A stretch of DNA of 7,737 nt from positions 1 to 7,737 of the forward strand of contig CADAHD010000100.1 in assembly GCA_902787595.1 (NCBI GenBank). The letters are read 5' to 3'. Of this stretch, positions 1 through 7,737 are shown piece after piece. Position 1 is the first letter of the stretch, and each line of letters starts with the position of its first letter. The notes under the pieces were generated by a model. The model made no database searches. It saw only the letters and a list, made by a program, of their open reading frames with translations, and was not told the DNA's origin. The DNA comes from an uncultured Lachnospiraceae bacterium (lineage in GTDB: Bacteria > Bacillota_A > Clostridia > Lachnospirales > Lachnospiraceae). The translations under genes and the position numbers were made by a program.

Positions 1-159
1 ACCCTTTATCTCATTTACGTTTCCTTCATCGGATACGCCCTTCTGGGTACCGCAGCCCATACAGGTCGATAACGTCATTCCTCCGCAATGGATCTTATCC
101 AATACTGCCTTAACATCCTCAAGCTTCTCCGGTCGTATAAATATATTTAATTCCTTCAT
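1..159 (-). CDS. P-II family nitrogen regulatory protein, N-terminal part (cut by window edge)
   Basis: The first 53 residues are visible and the rest runs off the window. The start MKELNIFIRPEKLEDVKAVL matches the first beta strand and helix of the GlnB/GlnK family, and it is followed by GGMTLSTCMGCGTQKG, the usual G-MT-S---G-G-QKG strand that leads into the T-loop. P-II proteins are cytosolic trimers that sense 2-oxoglutarate and ATP/ADP and control ammonium transporters and nitrogen enzymes. The T-loop start (GVSDEGNVNEIKG) differs from the enteric GlnB type, and two cysteines sit just before it. The ATG at 157-159 is chosen because GGAGG (168-172) lies 8 bases upstream; an earlier ATG at 164-166 is in another frame. 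The only visible promoter is upstream of an intrinsic terminator (186-223), so expression may require readthrough. The family is clear, but the GlnB, GlnK or NifI-like subtype cannot be decided from this fragment. Confidence 0.88.
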   Translation of the reverse strand, partial: MKELNIFIRPEKLEDVKAVLDKIHCGGMTLSTCMGCGTQKGVSDEGNVNEIKG

Positions 160-185: not shown

Positions 186-223
186 TCAAAACAGAAAAGG
201 CGCCGTATCACCGATACAGCGCC
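186..223 (-). terminator. Rho-independent terminator / possible attenuator in the P-II leader
   Basis: Read on the minus strand, an 11-bp stem (213-223 with 199-209, one G-U pair) closes a 3-base loop (210-212) and is followed by a T-rich run, TTTTCTGTTTT. It lies downstream of the promoter at 263-291 and only about 14 bases before the P-II ribosome binding site. It therefore ends transcripts from the six-gene operon and would also stop transcripts from that promoter unless they read through. I saw no strong competing antiterminator stem. The 17-base sequence AGGCAAGGGCGCTGTAT at its upstream side is identical in the second copy near 6400. Confidence 0.85.
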
Positions 224-262
224 CTTGCCTAATTTGTATAATATAGGACTTCTTTTATGTGC

Positions 263-291
263 AATATAAACTATTCATCAATACAATTCAA
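263..291 (-). promoter_or_regulatory. Sigma-A promoter for the P-II gene
   Basis: On the minus strand, TTGAAT (286-291) and TATATT (263-268) are separated by exactly 17 bases, close to the vegetative consensus. The copy before the six-gene operon has TTGAAA and TATATT with the same spacing. Predicted transcription starts near 256, giving a leader of roughly 100 bases that contains the terminator at 186-223. The start site is inferred from box positions. Confidence 0.75.
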
Positions 292-314: not shown

Positions 315-331
315 ACTACTTTTTGAGTAGT
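315..331. promoter_or_regulatory. Candidate operator dyad upstream of the P-II promoter
   Basis: ACTACT and AGTAGT form a perfect 6-bp inverted repeat around a 5-base centre. It lies about 24 bases upstream of the -35 box, a position suited to an activator. The equivalent site at 6508-6520 keeps the inner TACT-(5)-AGTA arms, and the flanking AAAAAGTAGTAGAAA is one of the best conserved parts of the duplicated module. The neighbouring LuxR-type protein is the natural candidate ligand, but that is inference. Confidence 0.5.
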
Positions 332-371: not shown

Positions 372-1643
372 TCATACTTCCCCCCAATAAAACATTTTAC
401 CCATATGTCTTATCATCTGACTGCTGTTATCATGTGGATACATCACATCAGTGCGGCTGTTATCATCACTTAGTTTTATCGTTTTCTTTAAGCCTTTTAT
501 TGCTTTAAGATGATCTATCATATTTTCCGCAGATGCATTTTTGTTATATAACTTCAGATAGGAATATCCCTTATGTTCATCTGACGGATATACCACAACC
601 TTAAAACGTCCGGCGATACCTTCGTCAGTCATTTCATTTAATAACCTCTGTACTTTTTCGGTTTTATCTATAAGCATAAAATAAACCACCGCATGCCCGC
701 GGGGCCTTGGTTTGTTCAGATAATTCCTGTAGGGTGATCTGTGCAGCTTATCATAGATCTGTTTTTCTGCAGGATTATCCAGTTTTTCATAATATATCAG
801 CAGGACATCTTCCAGGATGACCGTACTGAAAAGTCCGAACCCTTTTGCAGATATGTACTCTTCAAGTTCATCTGCCTGCTCTGCAGATATTACATAAACT
901 TTAGGGTAACTGTTCTCATTCACATCATAGAGTATTGCCCCATCCATTGCGATCACCGGCAATTCAGGACGTATTTCCGGCATGACTTCAAGATATGTTG
1001 CCGGAGTCTGCGTTGTCATGATCACCAGCTGTATACCATCCTCCAGTAAACTACCCAGATAAAACCTGCTGTATGGATCCAGCCCGTCTCCGTTTCTTCT
1101 GAAAGCATTATCAAGATCAGCAGCAAACAACACATCTTTCTGCATCTTGCCGTGAATATGGATCCCATTGAGCAAAAGTCCAAGGATTATACCGATCAGG
1201 GTATCAACGCTCCGGTCAATAACAAACAGGACCGGATCTGCATCTCCCAGATGGTTTACTACAATACTGAGATAAACCACACACGAAAAATATGCTGCGT
1301 TCTTTTTCTTTAACAAAACCGTTGAATATATGATCGGAACGATCATAACCGAAAGCGCAAAGAAATGGACTATACCATCTTTAAGATCATATACATATAT
1401 TTTTATCAGTATAAAAAGCAGTCCGAAAACCGCTCCTGTCAGTGTCCCGAAAATACGCTGAAAGGCATTGCCGACAGTATCCTTATTATGGGACTGGATA
1501 CACCAGAGTACGGCCAGCGCAGAATAGAACGGTGTTCCCTGTCTGCCGCGAAGCAGGTATATCACGAAACATAAGAACACACCCACTGCGGATTTTATGA
1601 TCCTCATGCCTATATGCGGGATTTCTTTTTTATTTTTCTTCAT
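372..1643 (-). CDS. FUSC/ArAE-family membrane protein with C-terminal HAD-like domain
   Basis: This 423-residue protein has two parts. Residues about 15-161 hold six predicted membrane segments (near 15-31, 37-50, 64-85, 91-111, 116-132 and 145-161). They include the repeated R-----T--G---G signature of FUSC/aromatic-acid-exporter proteins, seen as RIFGTLTGAVFG and RSVDTLIGIILG. From residue 170 the sequence resembles a Cof-type (IIB) HAD phosphatase: AADLDNAF (174-181) at motif I, IMTTQ (208-212) at motif II and AMDGA (232-236) where that class has NGA. The usual DxDGT is altered to DLDNA and later motifs are weak, so catalysis is doubtful and the domain may bind a ligand or act as a gate. 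It is the last gene of the operon, starting about 20 bases after its neighbour's stop. The ribosome binding site is weak, so the start is less certain than the frame. A role exporting the operon's product is inferred. Confidence 0.82.
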   Translation of the reverse strand: MKKNKKEIPHIGMRIIKSAVGVFLCFVIYLLRGRQGTPFYSALAVLWCIQSHNKDTVGNAFQRIFGTLTGAVFGLLFILIKIYVYDLKDGIVHFFALSVMIVPIIYSTVLLKKKNAAYFSCVVYLSIVVNHLGDADPVLFVIDRSVDTLIGIILGLLLNGIHIHGKMQKDVLFAADLDNAFRRNGDGLDPYSRFYLGSLLEDGIQLVIMTTQTPATYLEVMPEIRPELPVIAMDGAILYDVNENSYPKVYVISAEQADELEEYISAKGFGLFSTVILEDVLLIYYEKLDNPAEKQIYDKLHRSPYRNYLNKPRPRGHAVVYFMLIDKTEKVQRLLNEMTDEGIAGRFKVVVYPSDEHKGYSYLKLYNKNASAENMIDHLKAIKGLKKTIKLSDDNSRTDVMYPHDNSSQMIRHMGKMFYWGEV

Positions 1644-1663
1644 GGATATCTGCCGGCCCCGGT

Positions 1664-2602
1664 TCAGATCGCATCCGGATCAGCGATCAGTTTTATAACA
1701 GCAGTATACTGATAAGCAAGCGTTTCATTATGCACAAAGGCCACGATCCCGTCCTCCGGCGCTTTTATCTCCTGCTTTATTTCTCCGGTGTAAGGATCGC
1801 TGATGTATGCCATAAGCTCACCTTTTTGAACTCTCTGTCCCGCTTTTATCACTCCCATAAAAAATCCGGCACATTCGGTACGGATATTAAGCATATCTTT
1901 AGATTCCACTACCCGTGAGATATAACCTTCATAGCCCTGATACTCGATCATTTCCTGCTTTGACATAAAATGAAGTATGGAATTGACTGCCTGTTCCGCG
2001 CTTTCCTTATCGATAGCACCCGTACTTGTTGTGTAGATTGAAAAAGCCTGTGTATTCCATAACTGCCAGTTATAATTCAAAGTAGTTGTATCAAATGGCC
2101 TCGGATTATGCAGCACAACGTAAGGAAAGCCGAATTTTTTAGCCAGTTCGATATTCTCCCTTCCCGTTTTCATCATACGTACCTGCGGGACAAAGTTTCC
2201 GGGCATATAAAAAGAAGCAAACTGTATACCATACTCGTAATCCTTTATCTTTTCAAATATCCCGCCTGCGATCCGCTGCGTTGTTTCTCCCAGGTCATAT
2301 CCCGGAAACATTCTGTTTATATCCGTATTATCTATAGTCCAGAATCTTTTTTTCGCATTGGCCGAATATGGATTGGCACAGGGGATAACCATGATCTGCC
2401 TGCCGGGTAATATCCTGCCTTTTTTCTCCATAACCTTAAGCCTCTGTATAAGACGCGAGCACGCATATATCTGCTGGAACTCATTTCCGCGCATACTGCC
2501 GACTACACAAAGGCTTTTTTCACCTTCTCCAAACGTAAAAGATGTCACCCTGAAATCATCCCTGTATAATGAATGTATCTGATAGAGCGTCTCCCTTTTC
2601 AC
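1664..2602 (-). CDS. AstE/aspartoacylase-like protein without zinc ligands (predicted pseudoenzyme)
   Basis: This 312-residue protein is a diverged relative of its upstream neighbour. It keeps the fold landmarks: VVGSMRGNE (33-41) at the zinc motif, IPCANPYS (73-80), the substrate-site segment DINRMFPG (94-101), VPQVRM (138-143) and a C-terminal lipoyl-like beta domain (about 240-305, with IKAPEDGIVAFV). The zinc-binding His of the G-HGDE motif is Arg38 here, the second His (DIHAS in the neighbour) is replaced in IQFAS, and the catalytic Glu region reads SIYTTSTG. Family members with these changes are not expected to bind zinc or hydrolyse amides, so a regulatory or heteromer role is more likely. 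The start is GTG in a GTGA overlap with the previous stop, which favours translational coupling. The family is fairly sure and the loss of activity is inferred from motifs. Confidence 0.8.
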   Translation of the reverse strand: MKRETLYQIHSLYRDDFRVTSFTFGEGEKSLCVVGSMRGNEFQQIYACSRLIQRLKVMEKKGRILPGRQIMVIPCANPYSANAKKRFWTIDNTDINRMFPGYDLGETTQRIAGGIFEKIKDYEYGIQFASFYMPGNFVPQVRMMKTGRENIELAKKFGFPYVVLHNPRPFDTTTLNYNWQLWNTQAFSIYTTSTGAIDKESAEQAVNSILHFMSKQEMIEYQGYEGYISRVVESKDMLNIRTECAGFFMGVIKAGQRVQKGELMAYISDPYTGEIKQEIKAPEDGIVAFVHNETLAYQYTAVIKLIADPDAI

Positions 2603-3573
2603 CCTTCATACACCTCTCTTTTTAGTATTCTTCCGATAAGAGAACCTTCCTCAACTATCGGATACTCCCTGGTCGTAAACAGCCAGCCATCCACAGGAGC
2701 CTTTATCTGCGCTAATGCTTTTCCCCGCAGAGGATCCACGATAATACCTATCATATCTCCCTTAAGCACATGACTTCCCGTATTCTTATTCTTCAGATAT
2801 ACTCCTGATACAGGCGCATTCATATAACAGACATCATCGCCATTCTGGTCATAAGCGATCACCGGCTTTCTTATCTGGGGTGCCCTCCCACTCCAGATAC
2901 CCACTTCTGACATCATTGAGATGATGCCCTCTGTCATCTGCTCACCGTAGTCTTTAGTGATCCGCATACCTACCCCCATCTCGACCACCAGGGTTTTTAC
3001 ACCTATACTGTTCATGCTGAAAGCAAATGTAGATTCAAGCACAGTACTGTTTCCGTGTACCCATATAAGATCCATATTCGCTTTAGAAGCTATTGGTACA
3101 AGCTCATCTTTATGTATCTCATTTATCCTGATCTGCGGTATCTCCGTCAGGAATATATTGCTGGCATGGATATCTACGCAAAGATCGGCGCCTTTGCAGT
3201 CATCTATGATCTTCGAAGCAATATATTCATTCATATCCCCTTCGGTATTTCCCGGAAAGATCCGGTTCATGTCCAGATCAAATGCAGGTATCCCGCGGGT
3301 AACCGAATCCATTCCTATCGGATTCATGGCCGGATAGATATCAACTATGCCATTTAATGCTTCAGGATCCTTCTTAATGATCTCAGATAATGCATAACAG
3401 ACATACTGTCCTTCCAGTTCGTCCCCGTGTATGCCCGTGACTACACATATCCTTTTTTCATTCCCCTGCACATCGGCCGGCATTAGCCTGTGCTTATGCA
3501 GTTCAAAATTCTCATCTATAGGAAGTTCCGCCGAAGCCACCTTTCTTATCTCTTCAATCAGCACATTCTCCAA
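2599..3573 (-). CDS. Succinylglutamate desuccinylase/aspartoacylase-family zinc deacylase (M14-like)
   Basis: This 324-residue cytosolic metalloenzyme has the family's active-site set. GIHGDELEG (47-55) supplies zinc ligands His49 and Glu52, and DIHAS (134-138) supplies His136. DLDMNRIFPG (99-108) holds the Asn-Arg pair that holds the substrate carboxylate, and LVVEMG (195-200) holds the catalytic Glu198. After residue about 245 comes the C-terminal lipoyl-like beta domain (NAPVSGVYL, IKAPVDGWL) seen in AstE-type proteins. Characterised relatives remove acyl groups from N-acyl amino acids such as N-succinylglutamate and N-acetylaspartate. The substrate here is unknown, and the other arginine-succinyltransferase-pathway genes are absent, so naming it astE would be unsafe. 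The start is TTG, with GGAGG about 9 bases upstream. It overlaps the transglutaminase gene by 20 bases and the next gene by 4. Confidence 0.9.
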   Translation of the reverse strand: MENVLIEEIRKVASAELPIDENFELHKHRLMPADVQGNEKRICVVTGIHGDELEGQYVCYALSEIIKKDPEALNGIVDIYPAMNPIGMDSVTRGIPAFDLDMNRIFPGNTEGDMNEYIASKIIDDCKGADLCVDIHASNIFLTEIPQIRINEIHKDELVPIASKANMDLIWVHGNSTVLESTFAFSMNSIGVKTLVVEMGVGMRITKDYGEQMTEGIISMMSEVGIWSGRAPQIRKPVIAYDQNGDDVCYMNAPVSGVYLKNKNTGSHVLKGDMIGIIVDPLRGKALAQIKAPVDGWLFTTREYPIVEEGSLIGRILKREVYEG

Positions 3574-4387
3574 GTTCCTTCACCTCCACTGAAACAGTCT
3601 GTGTCTGAAAAGCCTTTTTACCGCATCCGGTAAAAACACCACGGTTTATCAGGCAGTCGCTGTAATCCCTTCCTTTTGCAATGCTTATGTGATCCTCACA
3701 CGTTATCGCATCATTCGTCGGATCCAGGCCTATCCATCCCTTTTCGGTATACGCCTCTACCCAGGCGTGTGATAAACCTTCTCCTGTCATCATCCCGGTA
3801 ACATAGCGGCAGGATATCCCCGCCAGCCTGAGCAGGGATAATAATATCTGAGCATAATCCTGGCACACTCCTTCACCTATGGAAAAAGCTTCCTCCGCTG
3901 TCGTAGTTATCATCGTTACATCACGTTTATATTCCAAAACATCGTGCAGTCTTTCCATAAAAAAAACAGCCTTGTGAAATGTCTTTGCCGGTTCATTTTT
4001 TTCAATACTATATATATATTCCTGCTCAAGCACCTTATAAAACCCTGTTATAGCTTTCCCCGGCAAGGTCTGTCCGGTCTGATAACGGAAAACATGATCT
4101 GACATGCGGTATGTCTCATCAATGTTTTCCGTATGCCCGGTGATAACTATACCATTAACTCTTACTCCAAAAAGAACATGTTCATCCTTTAACGATCCGT
4201 ATATGATCTCATTATCAAACTGATCCTTAGACCGGCTTAAGTAAAAATATGGACTAACGATATAATCCGATCTTTCAACGATCTGCCTGCCATCACTATG
4301 CGGCAGACACTTTAATGTAAAATGGTGTTCATGAACATGAACATCAAACCGTATCTCCATGTTGTAACAAAACTGAAGCCTTTTCAT
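3554..4387 (-). CDS. Transglutaminase-like cysteine protein
   Basis: This 277-residue protein has an N-terminal beta region typical of bacterial transglutaminase-like proteins (about 3-85, including FCYNMEIRFDVHVHEH). It is followed by a papain-like catalytic core with all three expected residues: Cys175 in GEGVCQDYAQ, His207 in SHAWVEAY and Asp222 in GLDPTND. The family contains proteases and amide transferases acting on peptide bonds or glutamine side chains. No signal peptide is visible, so it is probably cytosolic. In many bacteria this family is encoded beside ATP-grasp and alpha-E proteins, as here, where it has been proposed to cut or transfer the ligase product. The ATG overlaps the previous stop (ATGA), with GGAGG about 10 bases upstream. 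The exact reaction is unknown. Confidence 0.92.
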   Translation of the reverse strand: MKRLQFCYNMEIRFDVHVHEHHFTLKCLPHSDGRQIVERSDYIVSPYFYLSRSKDQFDNEIIYGSLKDEHVLFGVRVNGIVITGHTENIDETYRMSDHVFRYQTGQTLPGKAITGFYKVLEQEYIYSIEKNEPAKTFHKAVFFMERLHDVLEYKRDVTMITTTAEEAFSIGEGVCQDYAQILLSLLRLAGISCRYVTGMMTGEGLSHAWVEAYTEKGWIGLDPTNDAITCEDHISIAKGRDYSDCLINRGVFTGCGKKAFQTQTVSVEVKELGECAD

Positions 4388-5049
4388 GACATAAGAGCCT
4401 CCACCTCCTCTACCAGCTTCTTATAATCTATCTCATCGTCCTCCAGCAGAAAGTTGATATGGGCCAGACGTTTTTTACTGTATGAAAGCCCGGTCCTGTC
4501 AATCCTTCTGTTCAGTTTTTCCGCTTCCCTTTTGAGTTCCGGTCTTTCCATATGCATACGTGCATACAGATCCAGACGCTCCACACGCTTGCCCAGTTTT
4601 ATCATGCTCCGGACATGTTCATCATCGATACTGTCATCCACTATTCCCCAAAAAGCAACGATATTGTCCTTCACCCTCTGCAGTTCAAAGATCGGTGCTC
4701 CGGATATCTTTGCTTTATTCATTGCATAAACGGCCATCTGAATATACGCCAGTGTATTACTGCCTATCTCTTCCCTCATTACCACAGCATTATCATATGC
4801 TCTGGTCAGGTTTGAGATAATGGAATTCGGATCTTCCTCATCAAAACAGTATCTCTGCGCAAAACTTTCCGCAGAATAATAGATATCGGGAATATCCTGC
4901 TTTCTGCAATAATCCTTATATTCCTCCTCTTTCAGATCTATCATCGAATCATACTGATCCGAAAAGATCCTCAATGTTGTATAAACTCTTTCACTGTATC
5001 GTCCCAGCCAGTATAATCTGTCTGAGTGTTCTATTGAGATAATACCCAT
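4384..5049 (-). CDS. Alpha-E domain protein (DUF403), short form
   Basis: This all-helical, 221-residue protein has the alpha-E hallmarks: RLYWLGRYSERV (11-22) near the N-terminus, the helix YDNAVVMREEIGSNTL (85-100), FWGIVDDSI (133-141) and a second KLGKRVERLDLYAR (151-164) that echoes the first. Family members are commonly about 300 residues, so this one is short, mainly in the central and C-terminal part, but it has no frameshift and ends cleanly. The biochemical role is not established. Constant pairing with permuted ATP-grasp proteins suggests a partner or scaffold for the ligase. The ATG at 5049 has AAGG about 5 bases upstream and lies inside the end of the ATP-grasp gene (19-base overlap). 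The stop overlaps the transglutaminase start. Confidence 0.9.
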   Translation of the reverse strand: MGIISIEHSDRLYWLGRYSERVYTTLRIFSDQYDSMIDLKEEEYKDYCRKQDIPDIYYSAESFAQRYCFDEEDPNSIISNLTRAYDNAVVMREEIGSNTLAYIQMAVYAMNKAKISGAPIFELQRVKDNIVAFWGIVDDSIDDEHVRSMIKLGKRVERLDLYARMHMERPELKREAEKLNRRIDRTGLSYSKKRLAHINFLLEDDEIDYKKLVEEVEALMS

Positions 5050-6350
5050 GTATCCTTAAAACCTCCTCCCTGTGATGAATTGACTATAAACGAATCGGGA
5101 TTACGTGAAAAACGTGTAAGTCCGCTCTTCCATACCATCGGCTCATCTGCCATAAGTACAAACGCTCTCAGATCAGCCTTCCTGGGAACCACTTCTCCCT
5201 GATCAAGGATATCAATATCCAGAAAATCTATCACTTCCTGAGCTATAAACCTGCGTGGCTGAGCCTTCAGCATTCTTATAAAATCTTCCTTCTGGGCTGC
5301 GCTCATCTTGCTTCCGAAAACCACACCGTATCCGCCTGCTTCGGCCACATCCTTAAGTACCAGATCATCAAAGTGTTCAAGAACATATGACATATCCTTT
5401 TCATAATACGGCAGATATGTGGGTGCATTATTAAGTATCGAATCCTCATTCAGATAATACCTGATCATCTGCGGTACAAAATAATAGATTCCTTTATCAT
5501 CGGCAACGCCGTTTCCCGGTGCATTGAGGATCGCTACATTCCCCTTGCGGTATATGTCAAATATATGCGGTATCCCTATCAGTGAATCCTCTCTGAAGTT
5601 CATCGGATCCAGATAATCATCCGATATCCTGCGGTATACTGCGCCCACCAGTTCCTTCTTACCTGAATAGTCTATAAAATACAGATGATCGTTTTCGACA
5701 GTCAGTTCCTGTCCTCCCGCCAGATGGGCTCCGGTCTTTTCAGCCAGATAAGAATGTTCAAAGTATGCTGCATTATATCGTCCGGGTGTAAGGATAACCG
5801 TATGTCCTCCCGTATTTACATAGTCAAGAGTATCCCGCAGCATCTGTGCGTAATTACGGTTATCTTCCAGATGATTGTCACGGAATAACTGTGGTGCGCA
5901 TTTTCTGCAAAGATCCCTGGCTATCATCGGATAAGAAGCTCCGGACGGGATCCTGAGATTATCCTCCAGCACATACCATGTACCGTCTTTTCCCTGTACC
6001 AGATCAATACCGGAAATATGGGAATAAATCCCCTTTGAAGGCTCTATCCCTTCACAGTTTGCGAGATATCCGCTGCCGGCAAATACAAATTCCTCCGGCA
6101 CCACACCGTCCTTTATGATCTTTTTCTCATGATAGATGTCCTTTATGAACAGATTCAGAGCCGTAACCCTTTGTTTCAGCCCTTTTTCCAGATAAGAAAA
6201 TTCTTCCGCTCCTATCACTCTCGGGATCATATCAAAAGGGAATAACTGCTCATGAAAAGAGTTATTCTTATAAATCCCGAACTTAACACCATATCTTGCC
6301 AACAGCTCATTCACGGAATCTGTATTATTGATCAACTCCCTGGTATCCAT
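5031..6350 (-). CDS. Circularly permuted ATP-grasp ligase (type 2, DUF404/DUF407)
   Basis: This is the first gene of the operon, 439 residues, about the usual family length. Landmarks in order are LEDNLRIPSGASY (128-140), VILTPGRYNAAYFEHSYL (185-202), NAPGNGVADDKGIYYFVP (276-293), LKDVAEAGGYGVVFG (332-346), RKADLRAFVL (390-399) and the C-terminal block NSSQGGGFKDTWVL (424-437). These cover the nucleotide- and metal-binding parts of the permuted ATP-grasp fold, and nothing essential looks lost. ATP-grasp enzymes activate a carboxylate as acyl phosphate and join it to an amine or thiol. For this subfamily an amide-forming peptide ligase role has been proposed from genomic context, with substrates unknown. 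The ATG at 6348-6350 is preferred over an in-frame GTG 30 bases upstream because GGAGG (6357-6361) is well placed for the ATG and would otherwise lie inside the gene. The gene follows the promoter at 6454-6482 and the terminator at 6380-6417. Confidence 0.95.
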   Translation of the reverse strand: MDTRELINNTDSVNELLARYGVKFGIYKNNSFHEQLFPFDMIPRVIGAEEFSYLEKGLKQRVTALNLFIKDIYHEKKIIKDGVVPEEFVFAGSGYLANCEGIEPSKGIYSHISGIDLVQGKDGTWYVLEDNLRIPSGASYPMIARDLCRKCAPQLFRDNHLEDNRNYAQMLRDTLDYVNTGGHTVILTPGRYNAAYFEHSYLAEKTGAHLAGGQELTVENDHLYFIDYSGKKELVGAVYRRISDDYLDPMNFREDSLIGIPHIFDIYRKGNVAILNAPGNGVADDKGIYYFVPQMIRYYLNEDSILNNAPTYLPYYEKDMSYVLEHFDDLVLKDVAEAGGYGVVFGSKMSAAQKEDFIRMLKAQPRRFIAQEVIDFLDIDILDQGEVVPRKADLRAFVLMADEPMVWKSGLTRFSRNPDSFIVNSSQGGGFKDTWVLSQ

Positions 6351-6379: not shown

Positions 6380-6417
6380 CATAACAGAAAGGGCACCGTA
6401 TTCTTCATACAGCGCCC
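6380..6417 (-). terminator. Rho-independent terminator / possible attenuator before the six-gene operon
   Basis: On the minus strand an 11-bp stem (6407-6417 with 6391-6401, two G-U pairs) closes a 5-base loop and is followed by TTTCTGTTAT. It would end luxR transcription, but it also lies downstream of the promoter at 6454-6482 and about 20 bases before the ATP-grasp ribosome binding site. Operon transcripts must read through it or start at a site I do not see. Its upstream arm is identical to the copy at 186-223, while the opposite arm carries base changes that keep pairing, which supports a functional hairpin. Confidence 0.8.
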
Positions 6418-6453
6418 TTGCCTGAATATGTACTGTTACCCTATGTTGTATGC

Positions 6454-6482
6454 AATATAGCTTATTCAGGAGACCATTTCAA
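6454..6482 (-). promoter_or_regulatory. Sigma-A promoter for the six-gene operon
   Basis: On the minus strand TTGAAA (6477-6482) and TATATT (6454-6459) are 17 bases apart, a near-consensus vegetative promoter. It starts about 40 bases after the luxR stop. Predicted initiation is near 6447, so the leader before the ATP-grasp ATG is about 100 bases and includes the terminator hairpin. The duplicated copy at 263-291 conserves both boxes and spacing. Confidence 0.78.
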
Positions 6483-6507: not shown

Positions 6508-6520
6508 TACTTTTTAAGTA
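6508..6520. promoter_or_regulatory. Candidate operator dyad upstream of the operon promoter
   Basis: TACTT and AAGTA form an inverted repeat around 3 bases, directly after the luxR stop codon and about 25 bases upstream of the -35 box. The site matches the dyad at 315-331 in position and core (TACT, 5 bases, AGTA). The conservation of this stretch between copies that have drifted elsewhere suggests protein binding. Which protein binds is not shown by the sequence. Confidence 0.45.
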
Positions 6521-6523
6521 TGT

Positions 6524-7273
6524 TCATTCTTTTTCAAGTATCATCTTAAACAACCCTACCCGGTTATTGATCCCAAGCTTGCGATAAAGATTCAATATAT
6601 GCTTCTTAAGTGTACCTTCCGTAATGGTCATCATCTCACAGATAACGGTATTGCTCTTACCCTCCATAAGATGCTTAAGCACAGCTTCTTCCCGCCTAGT
6701 CAGTTCGTACTTTTCTGCTGCAGCGTGTACCGACAGTTTTTCAACAGAAGGATCATTACTCTTCTTCTGCTGGTACAGGCGGTATGCAAGATGATCTTTC
6801 AGCAGATCAAGGATAAATATATCATCATAAACAAAGTCATCTTTCCCGATCGTTCTGTAAAAAGTCACCACGCCTACGAATTCTTTTTTTCTTGCCAGCA
6901 CCATCTGCAGTGAGTAATGCCAGTTATTTGCTTTATATACATTCTTGTAATAATCTGTTTCAACTCTTTTGGCATCGCTTATTATATCCGTTTCGCGGTA
7001 GATCAGCGTCTTCCCGCCATACAGTATACCTCTGCTGTAATCCAGCTCGTCATATACCATGGACATATCTTCTTCGCAATTATATAAAATCGGCGATATG
7101 AGCTTTCTTTCCCCATCCGGAGATGCCAGATGAAAATCCGCGCTGTCATAATCGATCAGCATCTTCATCTGTTCAAGAAACTGCGCACGCATATCGTCGA
7201 TATCATCGACCGTATATATCTTATATATTATACTGTTTAGGAATATCCAGTCATTTGTTTCAAGAGTTCTCAT
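6524..7273 (-). CDS. LuxR-type transcriptional regulator with GAF-like sensor domain
   Basis: This 249-residue cytosolic regulator has an N-terminal region of about 165 residues with the alternating pattern of a GAF/PAS-like sensor (for example HYSLQMVLARKKEFVGVVTF, 119-138). A LuxR/FixJ-type DNA-binding domain follows at about 187-247: LTRREEAVLKHLMEGKSN (191-208) and then the recognition helix region TEGTLKKHILNLYRKLGI (218-235). There is no receiver domain with a phosphorylatable Asp, so a small-molecule signal is more likely than a histidine kinase, but the ligand is unknown. The ATG at 7271-7273 has GGGAG 8 bases upstream and no better start is near. Its 3' end overlaps the duplicated regulatory module, placing it as the probable local regulator of the downstream operon and perhaps of the P-II gene. 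Its own promoter is not evident; REP-like palindromes start 23 bases upstream of the start codon. Confidence 0.88.
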   Translation of the reverse strand: MRTLETNDWIFLNSIIYKIYTVDDIDDMRAQFLEQMKMLIDYDSADFHLASPDGERKLISPILYNCEEDMSMVYDELDYSRGILYGGKTLIYRETDIISDAKRVETDYYKNVYKANNWHYSLQMVLARKKEFVGVVTFYRTIGKDDFVYDDIFILDLLKDHLAYRLYQQKKSNDPSVEKLSVHAAAEKYELTRREEAVLKHLMEGKSNTVICEMMTITEGTLKKHILNLYRKLGINNRVGLFKMILEKE

Positions 7274-7326: not shown

Positions 7327-7337
7327 CTCATTCCTTA

Positions 7338-7370
7338 ATGAGGACACGGGGACGGTCCTTCTGTCTTCAT
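7338..7370. repeat. REP-like palindrome, copy 2
   Basis: This is a direct repeat of copy 1, about 42 bases further on, with the same core. The outer arms ATGAGGACA and TGTCTTCAT are 9 bp with one mismatch that is a G-U pair in one RNA strand. It forms the left end of the long inverted repeat that reaches 7657. Confidence 0.85.
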
Positions 7371-7623: not shown

Positions 7624-7657
7624 GTGAGGACAGTAAGAACCGTCCCCGCGTCCTCAC
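7624..7657. repeat. REP-like palindrome, copy 3 (inverted)
   Basis: Outer arms GTGAGGAC and GTCCTCAC (8 bp, perfect) enclose a core that, on the minus strand, reads GCGGGGACGGTTCTTA. It is therefore inverted relative to copies 1 and 2. It closes the right end of the long inverted repeat and abuts the possible gene end at 7658. Confidence 0.85.
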
Positions 7658-7737
7658 TCAGGTAACCGGATCGTACTGGAATCTGGACAGATGCTCGAAG
7701 GGCAGGATCTGCCGGCCTCTGAAAAGACCGCAGCCGT
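7658..7737 (-). CDS. Possible C-terminal end of an unidentified gene (cut by window edge)
   Basis: One minus-strand frame is open from the window edge to a TGA at 7658-7660 and ends FEHLSRFQYDPVT. Its strand agrees with all the other genes, and it stops exactly where the REP palindrome ends, as expected for repeats lying just after a gene. The fragment is only 25 codons and a plus-strand frame is also open here, so coding status is uncertain. I recognise no family. Confidence 0.28.
   Translation of the reverse strand, partial: GCGLFRGRQILPFEHLSRFQYDPVT

Follow-up and report, generated by a model that had tools for sequence, protein, structure and literature searches.

A leader RNA shared by a ligase and deacylase operon and by nitrogen-metabolism genes in rumen and gut Lachnospiraceae

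What does an operon that combines putative amide-making with putative amide-breaking enzymes do for its host, and what switches it on? The question is raised by a 7,737-nucleotide (nt) stretch of DNA from an uncultured Lachnospiraceae bacterium (contig CADAHD010000100.1 of assembly GCA_902787595.1; hereafter, the window), in which six open reading frames (ORFs) on the minus strand form one operon whose neighbouring genes overlap or nearly touch. Its first three genes encode a CP-ATP-grasp ligase, an Alpha-E protein and a transglutaminase-like protein, a trio whose association has lacked an explanation since 2009 or earlier (Iyer et al., as cited in PMC5666114). A preliminary description of the window proposed that the operon makes an amide-linked molecule, trims an acyl cap from it and exports it. 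Nitrogen control is a stronger signal than this make, trim and export account, and was hinted at in the description only through a mention of the P-II gene. The operon is probably expressed in response to nitrogen limitation under attenuation of the ANTAR type, its amide-making and amide-breaking enzymes perhaps helping to scavenge nitrogen. Its hosts are rumen and gut Lachnospiraceae. The comparisons of operon loci below draw on the best 80 of 390 ligase relatives found in species genomes, many of them metagenome-assembled genomes (MAGs), so that close relatives are over-represented among the loci.

A leader RNA with two exclusive structures

The ATP-grasp gene is preceded by a leader RNA (6384 to 6425, minus strand) in which a hexaloop hairpin, GGC-AAGGGC-GCU, overlaps the 5' arm of a terminator. 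A second copy of this leader (191 to 232, minus strand; terminator at 226-196) precedes the P-II gene at the other end of the window. Each scores 35.5 bits (E 9e-6) with R2, a model trained on 28 leaders that all stand before ATP-grasp genes (the window and 27 loci) and whose E-values are rough; the ATP-grasp leader of the window is in this training set, and the P-II leader is outside it but is a close paralogue of a training sequence. The terminators fold stably, with z of -4.7 in the ATP-grasp leader and -4.8 in the P-II leader. A terminator scan of the minus strand returned four sites, the strong ones being 6419-6389 and 226-196, both within the leaders, and the other two having 5-pair stems. 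No Rfam family matched the leader in the window.

The similarity between the two control regions extends beyond the leader. Repeats of 97 and 44 nt align the DNA upstream of the ATP-grasp gene with that upstream of P-II, the 97-nt repeat being 76% identical between the copies, and both regions share a TACTYAAAAAGTA box, a TTGAAW-N17-TATATT element and a leader that closes in a terminator. Ahead of the operon, the box is the palindrome TACTTAAAAAGTA (6508 to 6520, minus strand), a candidate activator site that lies in the repeat, is common to the P-II promoter and stands upstream of a predicted sigma-70-like promoter, TTGAAA-N17-TATATT (6454 to 6482, minus strand), located by consensus scan and by alignment with the P-II promoter. 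For the P-II unit, the repeat alignment places the box TACTCAAAAAGTA at 317 to 329 (minus strand), and a consensus match only places the putative promoter, TTGAAT-N17-TATATT, at 263 to 291 (minus strand). Transcription would start at the positions that this consensus predicts; the promoter scan as a whole found no more matches than chance (16 against 21 expected). In G001, the genome of a relative, TACTTAAAAAGTA has one perfect copy, ahead of the ATP-grasp leader.

Across the relatives, a hairpin of the form [A/G]C-AARGGN-G[U/C] excludes an overlapping intrinsic terminator, giving two mutually exclusive structures. In 191 kb of intergenic DNA from the 80 loci and the window, ACAARGGNGT was the top terminator-linked class of 10-mers, with a terminator after 50 of 51 occurrences; for GCAARGGNGC, a terminator follows in 19 of 27, scrambles giving a mean of 0.15 and a maximum of 2. 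Several other classes in the 10-mer list are the same element in a different register. A strict site lies within 400 nt before the ATP-grasp gene at 44 of 79 loci, and antisense strands hold 14 in 1.31 Mb.

The hairpin is also supported by base changes that preserve pairing. Of 120 distinct leaders, 114 have outer bases that pair, the expectation being 96.5 (0 of 5000 shuffles), with A-U swapped for G-C; these bases played no part in the accompanying terminator test. In the A3 alignment, 95.5% of hairpin cells are paired against 89.3% after shuffling, and paired cells, double changes and the covariation score lie above every shuffle, related leader sequences not being independent. The loop is AARGGN, with A1 and G4, in the window and in most leaders. 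Of 48 scored leaders, 39 have their best -10 box 7-14 nt upstream of the hairpin, so the hairpin would open the transcript in most leaders, and these 39 would have little room for the P1 hairpin of classical ANTAR targets. P1 was not seen for either leader of the window, and a strict scan for hairpin pairs yielded one plausible site (L055).

Some loci carry more than one element. Tandem leader elements, each with its own terminator and 37-93 nt apart, stand ahead of either the operon or transporter genes at seven loci (L055, L079, L076, L029, L012, L003 and L056). The nearest arrangement seen to a dual-hairpin ANTAR site is two overlapping hexaloop elements 16 nt apart in the glnA leader of G001 (L089, 3127-3170).

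The regulon behind the leader and its candidate regulator

The leader is not confined to the operon. Of 100 Lachnospiraceae genomes sampled, 80 contain it with an E-value no higher than 0.001. The window and the 27 training loci match R2 by construction, because they are in its training set; among the 52 untrained loci, an R2 leader lies at most 1.6 kb upstream in 39 and at most 5.2 kb upstream in 45, often before co-oriented FUSC or transporter genes. A scan of 12 genomes, in which 150 candidates per genome were scored and which gives an incomplete regulon list, returned 82 places; removal of 16 with E above 0.01 and of 6 overlapping or within 150 nt of a better one left 60 separate sites with E below 0.01. 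Eight of these stand before ATP-grasp genes, four of them training sequences. Thirty precede a nitrogen set: glutamine synthetase GS-III (5), NAD synthase (5), glutamate synthase (GOGAT, 4), asparagine synthase (AsnB, 4), sodium-alanine symporter (3), GlnQ-like ABC ATPase (3, two of them checked), C26 amidase (2), and one each of an ABC substrate-binding protein, P-II, an Amt-P-II fusion and CTP synthase (PyrG). Another 12 precede other plausible members, namely M20 peptidase (3), PPDK-like (3), RelA/SpoT-like (1), FUSC (1), 2-hydroxyacid dehydrogenase, aminotransferase, RidA-like and CitMHS genes.

The surroundings of the operon in relatives are of the same kind. In AB2028, gltD, pyrG (identified by eye), carAB, glnA, an ANTAR gene and FUSC lie upstream of the operon; at L042, GS-III, purF and an Amt-P-II protein (its Amt part identified by eye) lie downstream; and in Treponema L025 a urea ABC transporter has its own leader. 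Because the operon shares its RNA switch with genes of ammonia and glutamine metabolism, its role would be to cope with nitrogen shortage. A leader-like element, recognized by pattern only, also stands at L088 (1217-2428, minus strand) before an ornithine-cyclodeaminase family gene, the tyramine oxidase subunit B of NCBIfam, downstream of P-II and potABCD-like genes.

The likely regulator is an ANTAR protein encoded beside glutamine synthetase. ANTAR (PF03861) is present in 50 of 53 genomes of relatives that carry the operon, 49 of them over the cut-off and one with two copies, and in 0 of 14 control genomes. Glutamine synthetase lies at most 1.5 kb away in 32 of the 33 loci examined out of 51 ANTAR matches. 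Among the 100 Lachnospiraceae genomes, 78 have both ANTAR and the leader, 11 ANTAR only, 2 the leader only and 9 neither (p 3.9e-6, treating genomes as independent).

Published ANTAR systems offer a close parallel. EutV needs A1 and G4 in the hexaloop and AC-GU closing pairs, and ANTAR targets are listed before P-II, ammonium transporter, glutamate synthase and glutamine synthase genes (PMC3369931); in Clostridium acetobutylicum, nitR is described as an antiterminator for ammonia assimilation (PMC4676874). The leader resembles the targets of EutV, NasR, AmiR and nitR in its A1/G4 hexaloop, its AC/GU closing pairs, its overlap with a terminator, its nitrogen genes and the ANTAR gene beside glutamine synthetase. 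It differs from them in that the majority of leaders carry a single hairpin close to the 5' end rather than two in tandem, and in that GC/GC closing pairs and G1 loop variants occur. The leader would thus work like an ANTAR target, its membership in the class not being established because EutV needs two hairpins and most leaders have one. ANTAR-type control of this operon was not found in print among open-licence papers.

On this basis, the transcript in most relatives is predicted to start just before an AARGGN-loop hairpin of the kind that ANTAR proteins read. The ANTAR protein linked to glnA would hold the hairpin, the terminator could then not form, and the operon would be transcribed. With the hairpin unheld, transcription would end in the leader.

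Related trios are under nitrogen control in other bacteria. The same three families are clustered in the trio linked to Anbu in Pseudomonas putida (PP_2685-2688) and Burkholderia cenocepacia (I35_5080-83), where PP_2687 and PP_2688, hypothetical in the source listing, are presumably the Alpha-E and ATP-grasp proteins. In wild-type P. putida under nitrogen limitation, PP_2686-2688 are up 11 to 15 fold in the published listing, with NtrB/NtrC as putative regulator (PMC7801951). Another study gives 11.1, 6.6 and 7.1 for PP2685, PP2686 and PP2687 (PMC3325844), and Anbu is said to be induced in nitrogen-limited P. putida (PMC5666114). In a B. cenocepacia ntrC mutant, the listing gives DUF404/407, DUF403 and two transglutaminase-like genes as down 8.2, 9.4, 9.4 and 6.0 fold, glnA, P-II and potA/potD falling with the trio and another spermidine/putrescine ATPase having the opposite sign (PMC5491218). 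The domains of the trio have also been tied to urea metabolism in marine metagenomes (PMC3597751). By analogy with the NtrC control of the trio, nitrogen shortage would be the signal here as well, acting through leader attenuation rather than NtrC.

Several observations weigh against nitrogen control of the ANTAR type. The isolated hairpin folds weakly in the window (z -0.65 and +0.54), where the -10 element lies about 30 nt upstream of the hairpin. Two of the five A3 measures, the counts of double-change pairs and of pair types, do not beat shuffles, and in the terminator 7 of 13 pairs have double changes, its pairing being partly built in because leaders were selected for a complementary terminator arm. 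A minority of leaders have G at loop position 1 (GAAGGN, for example L010, L015 and L061), and most have one hairpin and lack the classical P1, two hairpins being required for EutV and classical ANTAR targets (PMC3369931). No leader lies within 1.6 kb at 13 of the 52 untrained loci, and at 10 of the 60 regulon sites the gene that follows is unrelated or there is none. Neither sites nor genomes are independent, some counts repeating one gene in close relatives; 4 of the 12 genomes are close kin (Pseudobutyrivibrio and Butyrivibrio fibrisolvens 16/4) and supply all four AsnB sites. A leader is missing from 11 of 89 ANTAR genomes and present in 2 of 11 genomes without ANTAR. In P. putida, an rpoN mutant still shows induction of PP_2686-2688, and the wild-type value for PP_2685 is flat at 1.12 (PMC7801951). 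A Caulobacter ntrC mutant raises hvyA, a transglutaminase homologue whose membership in a trio is not established (PMC10274813).

The single hairpin near the predicted transcript start and the 11 ANTAR genomes with no detected leader would also fit leaders that are read by a factor other than ANTAR, or that are plain unregulated terminators. This explanation is unlikely: the hairpin that excludes the terminator covaries, its loop A1/G4 and AC-GU closing pairs are those of EutV targets, ANTAR and leader co-occur across genomes, and the genes behind the leader form a nitrogen set. ANTAR-type attenuation remains the preferred account of how the operon is controlled.

The five-gene unit and its possible chemistry

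The conserved unit of the operon is five genes: the trio, an AstE/AspA-like deacylase and a pseudoenzyme partner. At 58 of the 61 loci with at least 4 kb of downstream sequence, the ATP-grasp gene is accompanied by Alpha-E, transglutaminase and both AstE/AspA-like genes, an order beyond chance; the exceptions are L008 and L009, where Alpha-E and transglutaminase are displaced 4-5 kb downstream, and L053. The deacylase is found in all 12 of the Alpha-E genomes among the 100 Lachnospiraceae, and 11 of these have both genes on one contig, a few kb apart at most. These counts bear out the expectation of the preliminary description that the deacylase pair accompanies the trio. Its six genes in one overlapping operon are confirmed on the minus strand by ORFs and Pfam families, and it was also right about a related protein without active-site residues and a FUSC membrane protein fused to a HAD-like domain. 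In the window, the genes from ATP-grasp through the second AstE/AspA-like gene overlap, and FUSC follows 20 nt further downstream.

The circularly permuted ATP-grasp ligase (CP_ATPgrasp_2; 5031 to 6350, minus strand; Pfam E 2e-137) starts at an ATG at 6350 that is preceded by aaggaggg, the mechanical ORF beginning at 6380. It resembles the solved structure 3n6x along nearly its entire length (E 1e-112), and the name of this close relative, putative glutathionylspermidine synthase, is an annotation. The Alpha-E protein (4384 to 5049, minus strand) is short, with 221 residues that match profile positions 7-165 of 294 (Pfam E 1e-22; AlphaFold2 pLDDT 88). The transglutaminase-like protein (3554 to 4387, minus strand; Transglut_core E 3e-16) has Cys175, His207 and Asp222, which we take to be its catalytic triad, invariant in an alignment of 69 sequences.

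The two AstE/AspA-like proteins differ in their active sites. In the putative zinc deacylase (2599 to 3573, minus strand; AstE_AspA_cat E 3e-21), His49, Glu52, His136 and Glu198, presumably the zinc ligands and the catalytic Glu, are kept in 66 of 66 sequences, as is the Asn-Arg motif, with Arg in 65 of 66. In the second protein (1664 to 2602, minus strand; AstE_AspA_cat E 3e-13; AlphaFold2 pLDDT 92), all 64 of 64 sequences have Arg, Ala/Thr/Ser and Tyr at the positions of His49, His136 and Glu198, the zinc His pair and catalytic Glu; the Glu ligand, Asn-Arg and the fold are retained, as is a motif peculiar to this protein (DTxTLNYNWQ). Because the changes are fixed and yet the motifs and fold are kept, this protein is a maintained pseudoenzyme and not a decaying gene. 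Its AlphaFold2 model finds 3cdx, 3na6 and 6twm as best Foldseek matches. The active member shares its fold, zinc ligands and Asn-Arg with the AstE/AspA family, such as EutE/DoeB (6twm) and CphZ (8ein); it differs in being paired with a fixed inactive paralogue and in falling below the cut-off of the DoeB model (57 bits against 403).

The sixth gene (372 to 1643, minus strand) encodes a FUSC membrane protein (FUSC_2 E 1.5e-13) with a degenerate HAD-like C-terminal domain (Hydrolase_3 E 1.8e-9), in which the DxD motif is present in the window; of 15 aligned sequences compared by eye, 10 have lost the first Asp. It bears on the proposal of the preliminary description, a pathway resembling secondary metabolism in which an amide is ligated, an acyl cap trimmed and the product exported by FUSC. 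The enzyme families fit such a pathway, a gap of 20 nt separates FUSC from the pair upstream of it in the window, and leaders precede FUSC genes in other genomes. That description treated FUSC as a companion of the trio and held that its rarity beside the trio in related genomes would count against the proposal. FUSC is present at 13 of 44 loci with both flanks and absent from 31, and directly 3' of the deacylase pair in 2 of 55; it is best regarded as an optional member. In AB2028, FUSC is preceded by glnA, ANTAR and a RelA/SpoT-like gene, and nitrogen control fits core metabolism better. The export pathway is accordingly improbable.

Two further companions named in that description are luxR and P-II. 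LuxR does not regularly accompany the operon: no match above 60 bits was found at the 44 loci with both flanks and, in the nearest relative of the window (a Lachnospiraceae MAG, 97% identical at the nt level across 1.5 kb), another gene precedes the same leader. P-II is close to the operon at few of the 80 loci (L002; fused to Amt at L042 and L043).

Nitrogen could also be stored rather than scavenged. The operon would then make or recycle an isopeptide store like cyanophycin, with the deacylase as a dipeptide hydrolase like CphZ. P-II control of nitrogen stores is known in cyanobacteria. CphZ (8ein, 8eip) is structurally related to the modelled pseudoenzyme (E 2e-20) and has a weak sequence relation to the active deacylase over residues 249-320 (E 4e-5). 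The matches to EutE/DoeB and other AstE relatives are, however, as good or better, the operon has no cyanophycin synthetase, CP-ATP-grasp being a different ligase, and making a store during shortage would be odd. We give this alternative a small chance.

A third possibility is peptide tagging or protein turnover, as proposed for the Anbu operons (PMC5666114), with the deacylase pair in place of Anbu. Anbu is not among the ORFs of the window by Pfam scan, and a search of 13 operon genomes found no proteasome-fold peptidase (PF00227) in any of the 13, with a match in 10 of 14 control genomes; the pair may therefore fill the place of the Anbu hydrolase. Alpha-E occurs in six of 299 Bacillota genomes, three with a short and three with a long form, and all three short-form genes come with the pair. 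The operon genomes differ from those of the Anbu-linked trio in the short Alpha-E and the added pair as well as in the missing peptidase. AstE/AspA enzymes, however, act on small molecules. In the three long-form genomes, the pair was not found within 14 kb around Alpha-E, and a proteasome-fold gene is absent beside the trio and present elsewhere in each; because these have neither beside it, the trio can do without both. Tagging is therefore a rather improbable role.

The pair has a distribution of its own. Of the 100 Lachnospiraceae genomes, 11 have strong matches to it and lack Alpha-E, and of 13 stand-alone pairs examined, 8 have purL nearby (L194, L196, L197 and L199-L203), which suggests a function separate from the trio. 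Because it also occurs without the trio, the pair is a module in its own right that was joined to the short-form trio.

For a nitrogen-limitation operon, the enzymes may be arranged as follows. The ATP-grasp ligase would link a carboxylate with an amine or an amino compound, its product would be processed or transferred by the transglutaminase-like enzyme, and removal of an acyl group by the zinc deacylase together with the pseudoenzyme would free usable nitrogen. This capped scavenging by ligase, transglutaminase and deacylase pair is the leading guess for the chemistry, though a tentative and on balance doubtful one. The P-II unit of the window is 93% identical to that of G001 over the 284 nt compared, and in G001 it runs on into genes best matched to PotA, PotB, PotC and PotD and includes two ornithine-cyclodeaminase-like genes, one of the two checked. 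Because of these Pot-like and ornithine-cyclodeaminase-like genes, amines are a reasonable first class of substrates.

Neighbouring elements, spirochaete loci and meaning

On the minus strand, the genes of the window run in the order LuxR, ATP-grasp, Alpha-E, transglutaminase, deacylase, second AstE/AspA-like gene, FUSC/HAD and the start of P-II. The LuxR-type gene lies at 6524 to 7273 (minus strand; Pfam GerE E 1.4e-13). The P-II gene start (1 to 159, minus strand) continues beyond the window edge and was assigned by 93% DNA identity to the Pfam P-II gene of a relative.

Upstream of LuxR, on the opposite strand, lies a TwoAYGGAY RNA (RF01731; 7415-7578, plus strand; 83.5 bits, gathering threshold 43), enclosed by inverted GGGGACGGTCC-type repeats (7333-7360 and 7635-7662). 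G001, G002 and G004 have 5, 17 and 12 copies of this RNA, G004 with four divergent pairs, and G003 and G005 have none. Within the flanks examined, GGGGACGGTCC-type repeats flank 3 of the 5 copies in G001 and 8 of 21 loci overall. A mobile repeat may carry the TwoAYGGAY RNA.

The operon also occurs in rumen spirochaete MAGs (L008, L009, L025, L038 and L040 of Treponema; L048 of Spirochaetaceae). The five genes are in order in four of the six, L008 and L009 being those that differ, and the leader precedes ATP-grasp at L008, L009, L025 and L038. If the binning is right, this suggests that the operon and its switch were transferred together into rumen spirochaetes. L025 (14827-15162) and L048 (10615-10965) further encode, convergently behind the operon and with its own leader, a short protein with a weak LuxR match (40 and 43 bits), whose LuxR-type helix-turn-helix domain was checked in L025.

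In its widest form, the conclusion would be that the nitrogen regulon of the Lachnospiraceae is run by a compact attenuator with one hairpin at the 5' end of transcripts, a variant of the ANTAR type that reached rumen Treponema with the operon, and that the five-gene module scavenges nitrogen by a pathway not described before, with a deacylase and its obligate pseudoenzyme partner standing in for Anbu. This conjunction is conceivable, though we lean slightly against its holding in full. For the trio, nitrogen control would come by a second, unrelated mechanism in another phylum, which names a condition in which to assay these enzymes. The shared leader offers a ready reporter, and it could account for how bacteria common in the gut and rumen are controlled by nitrogen.

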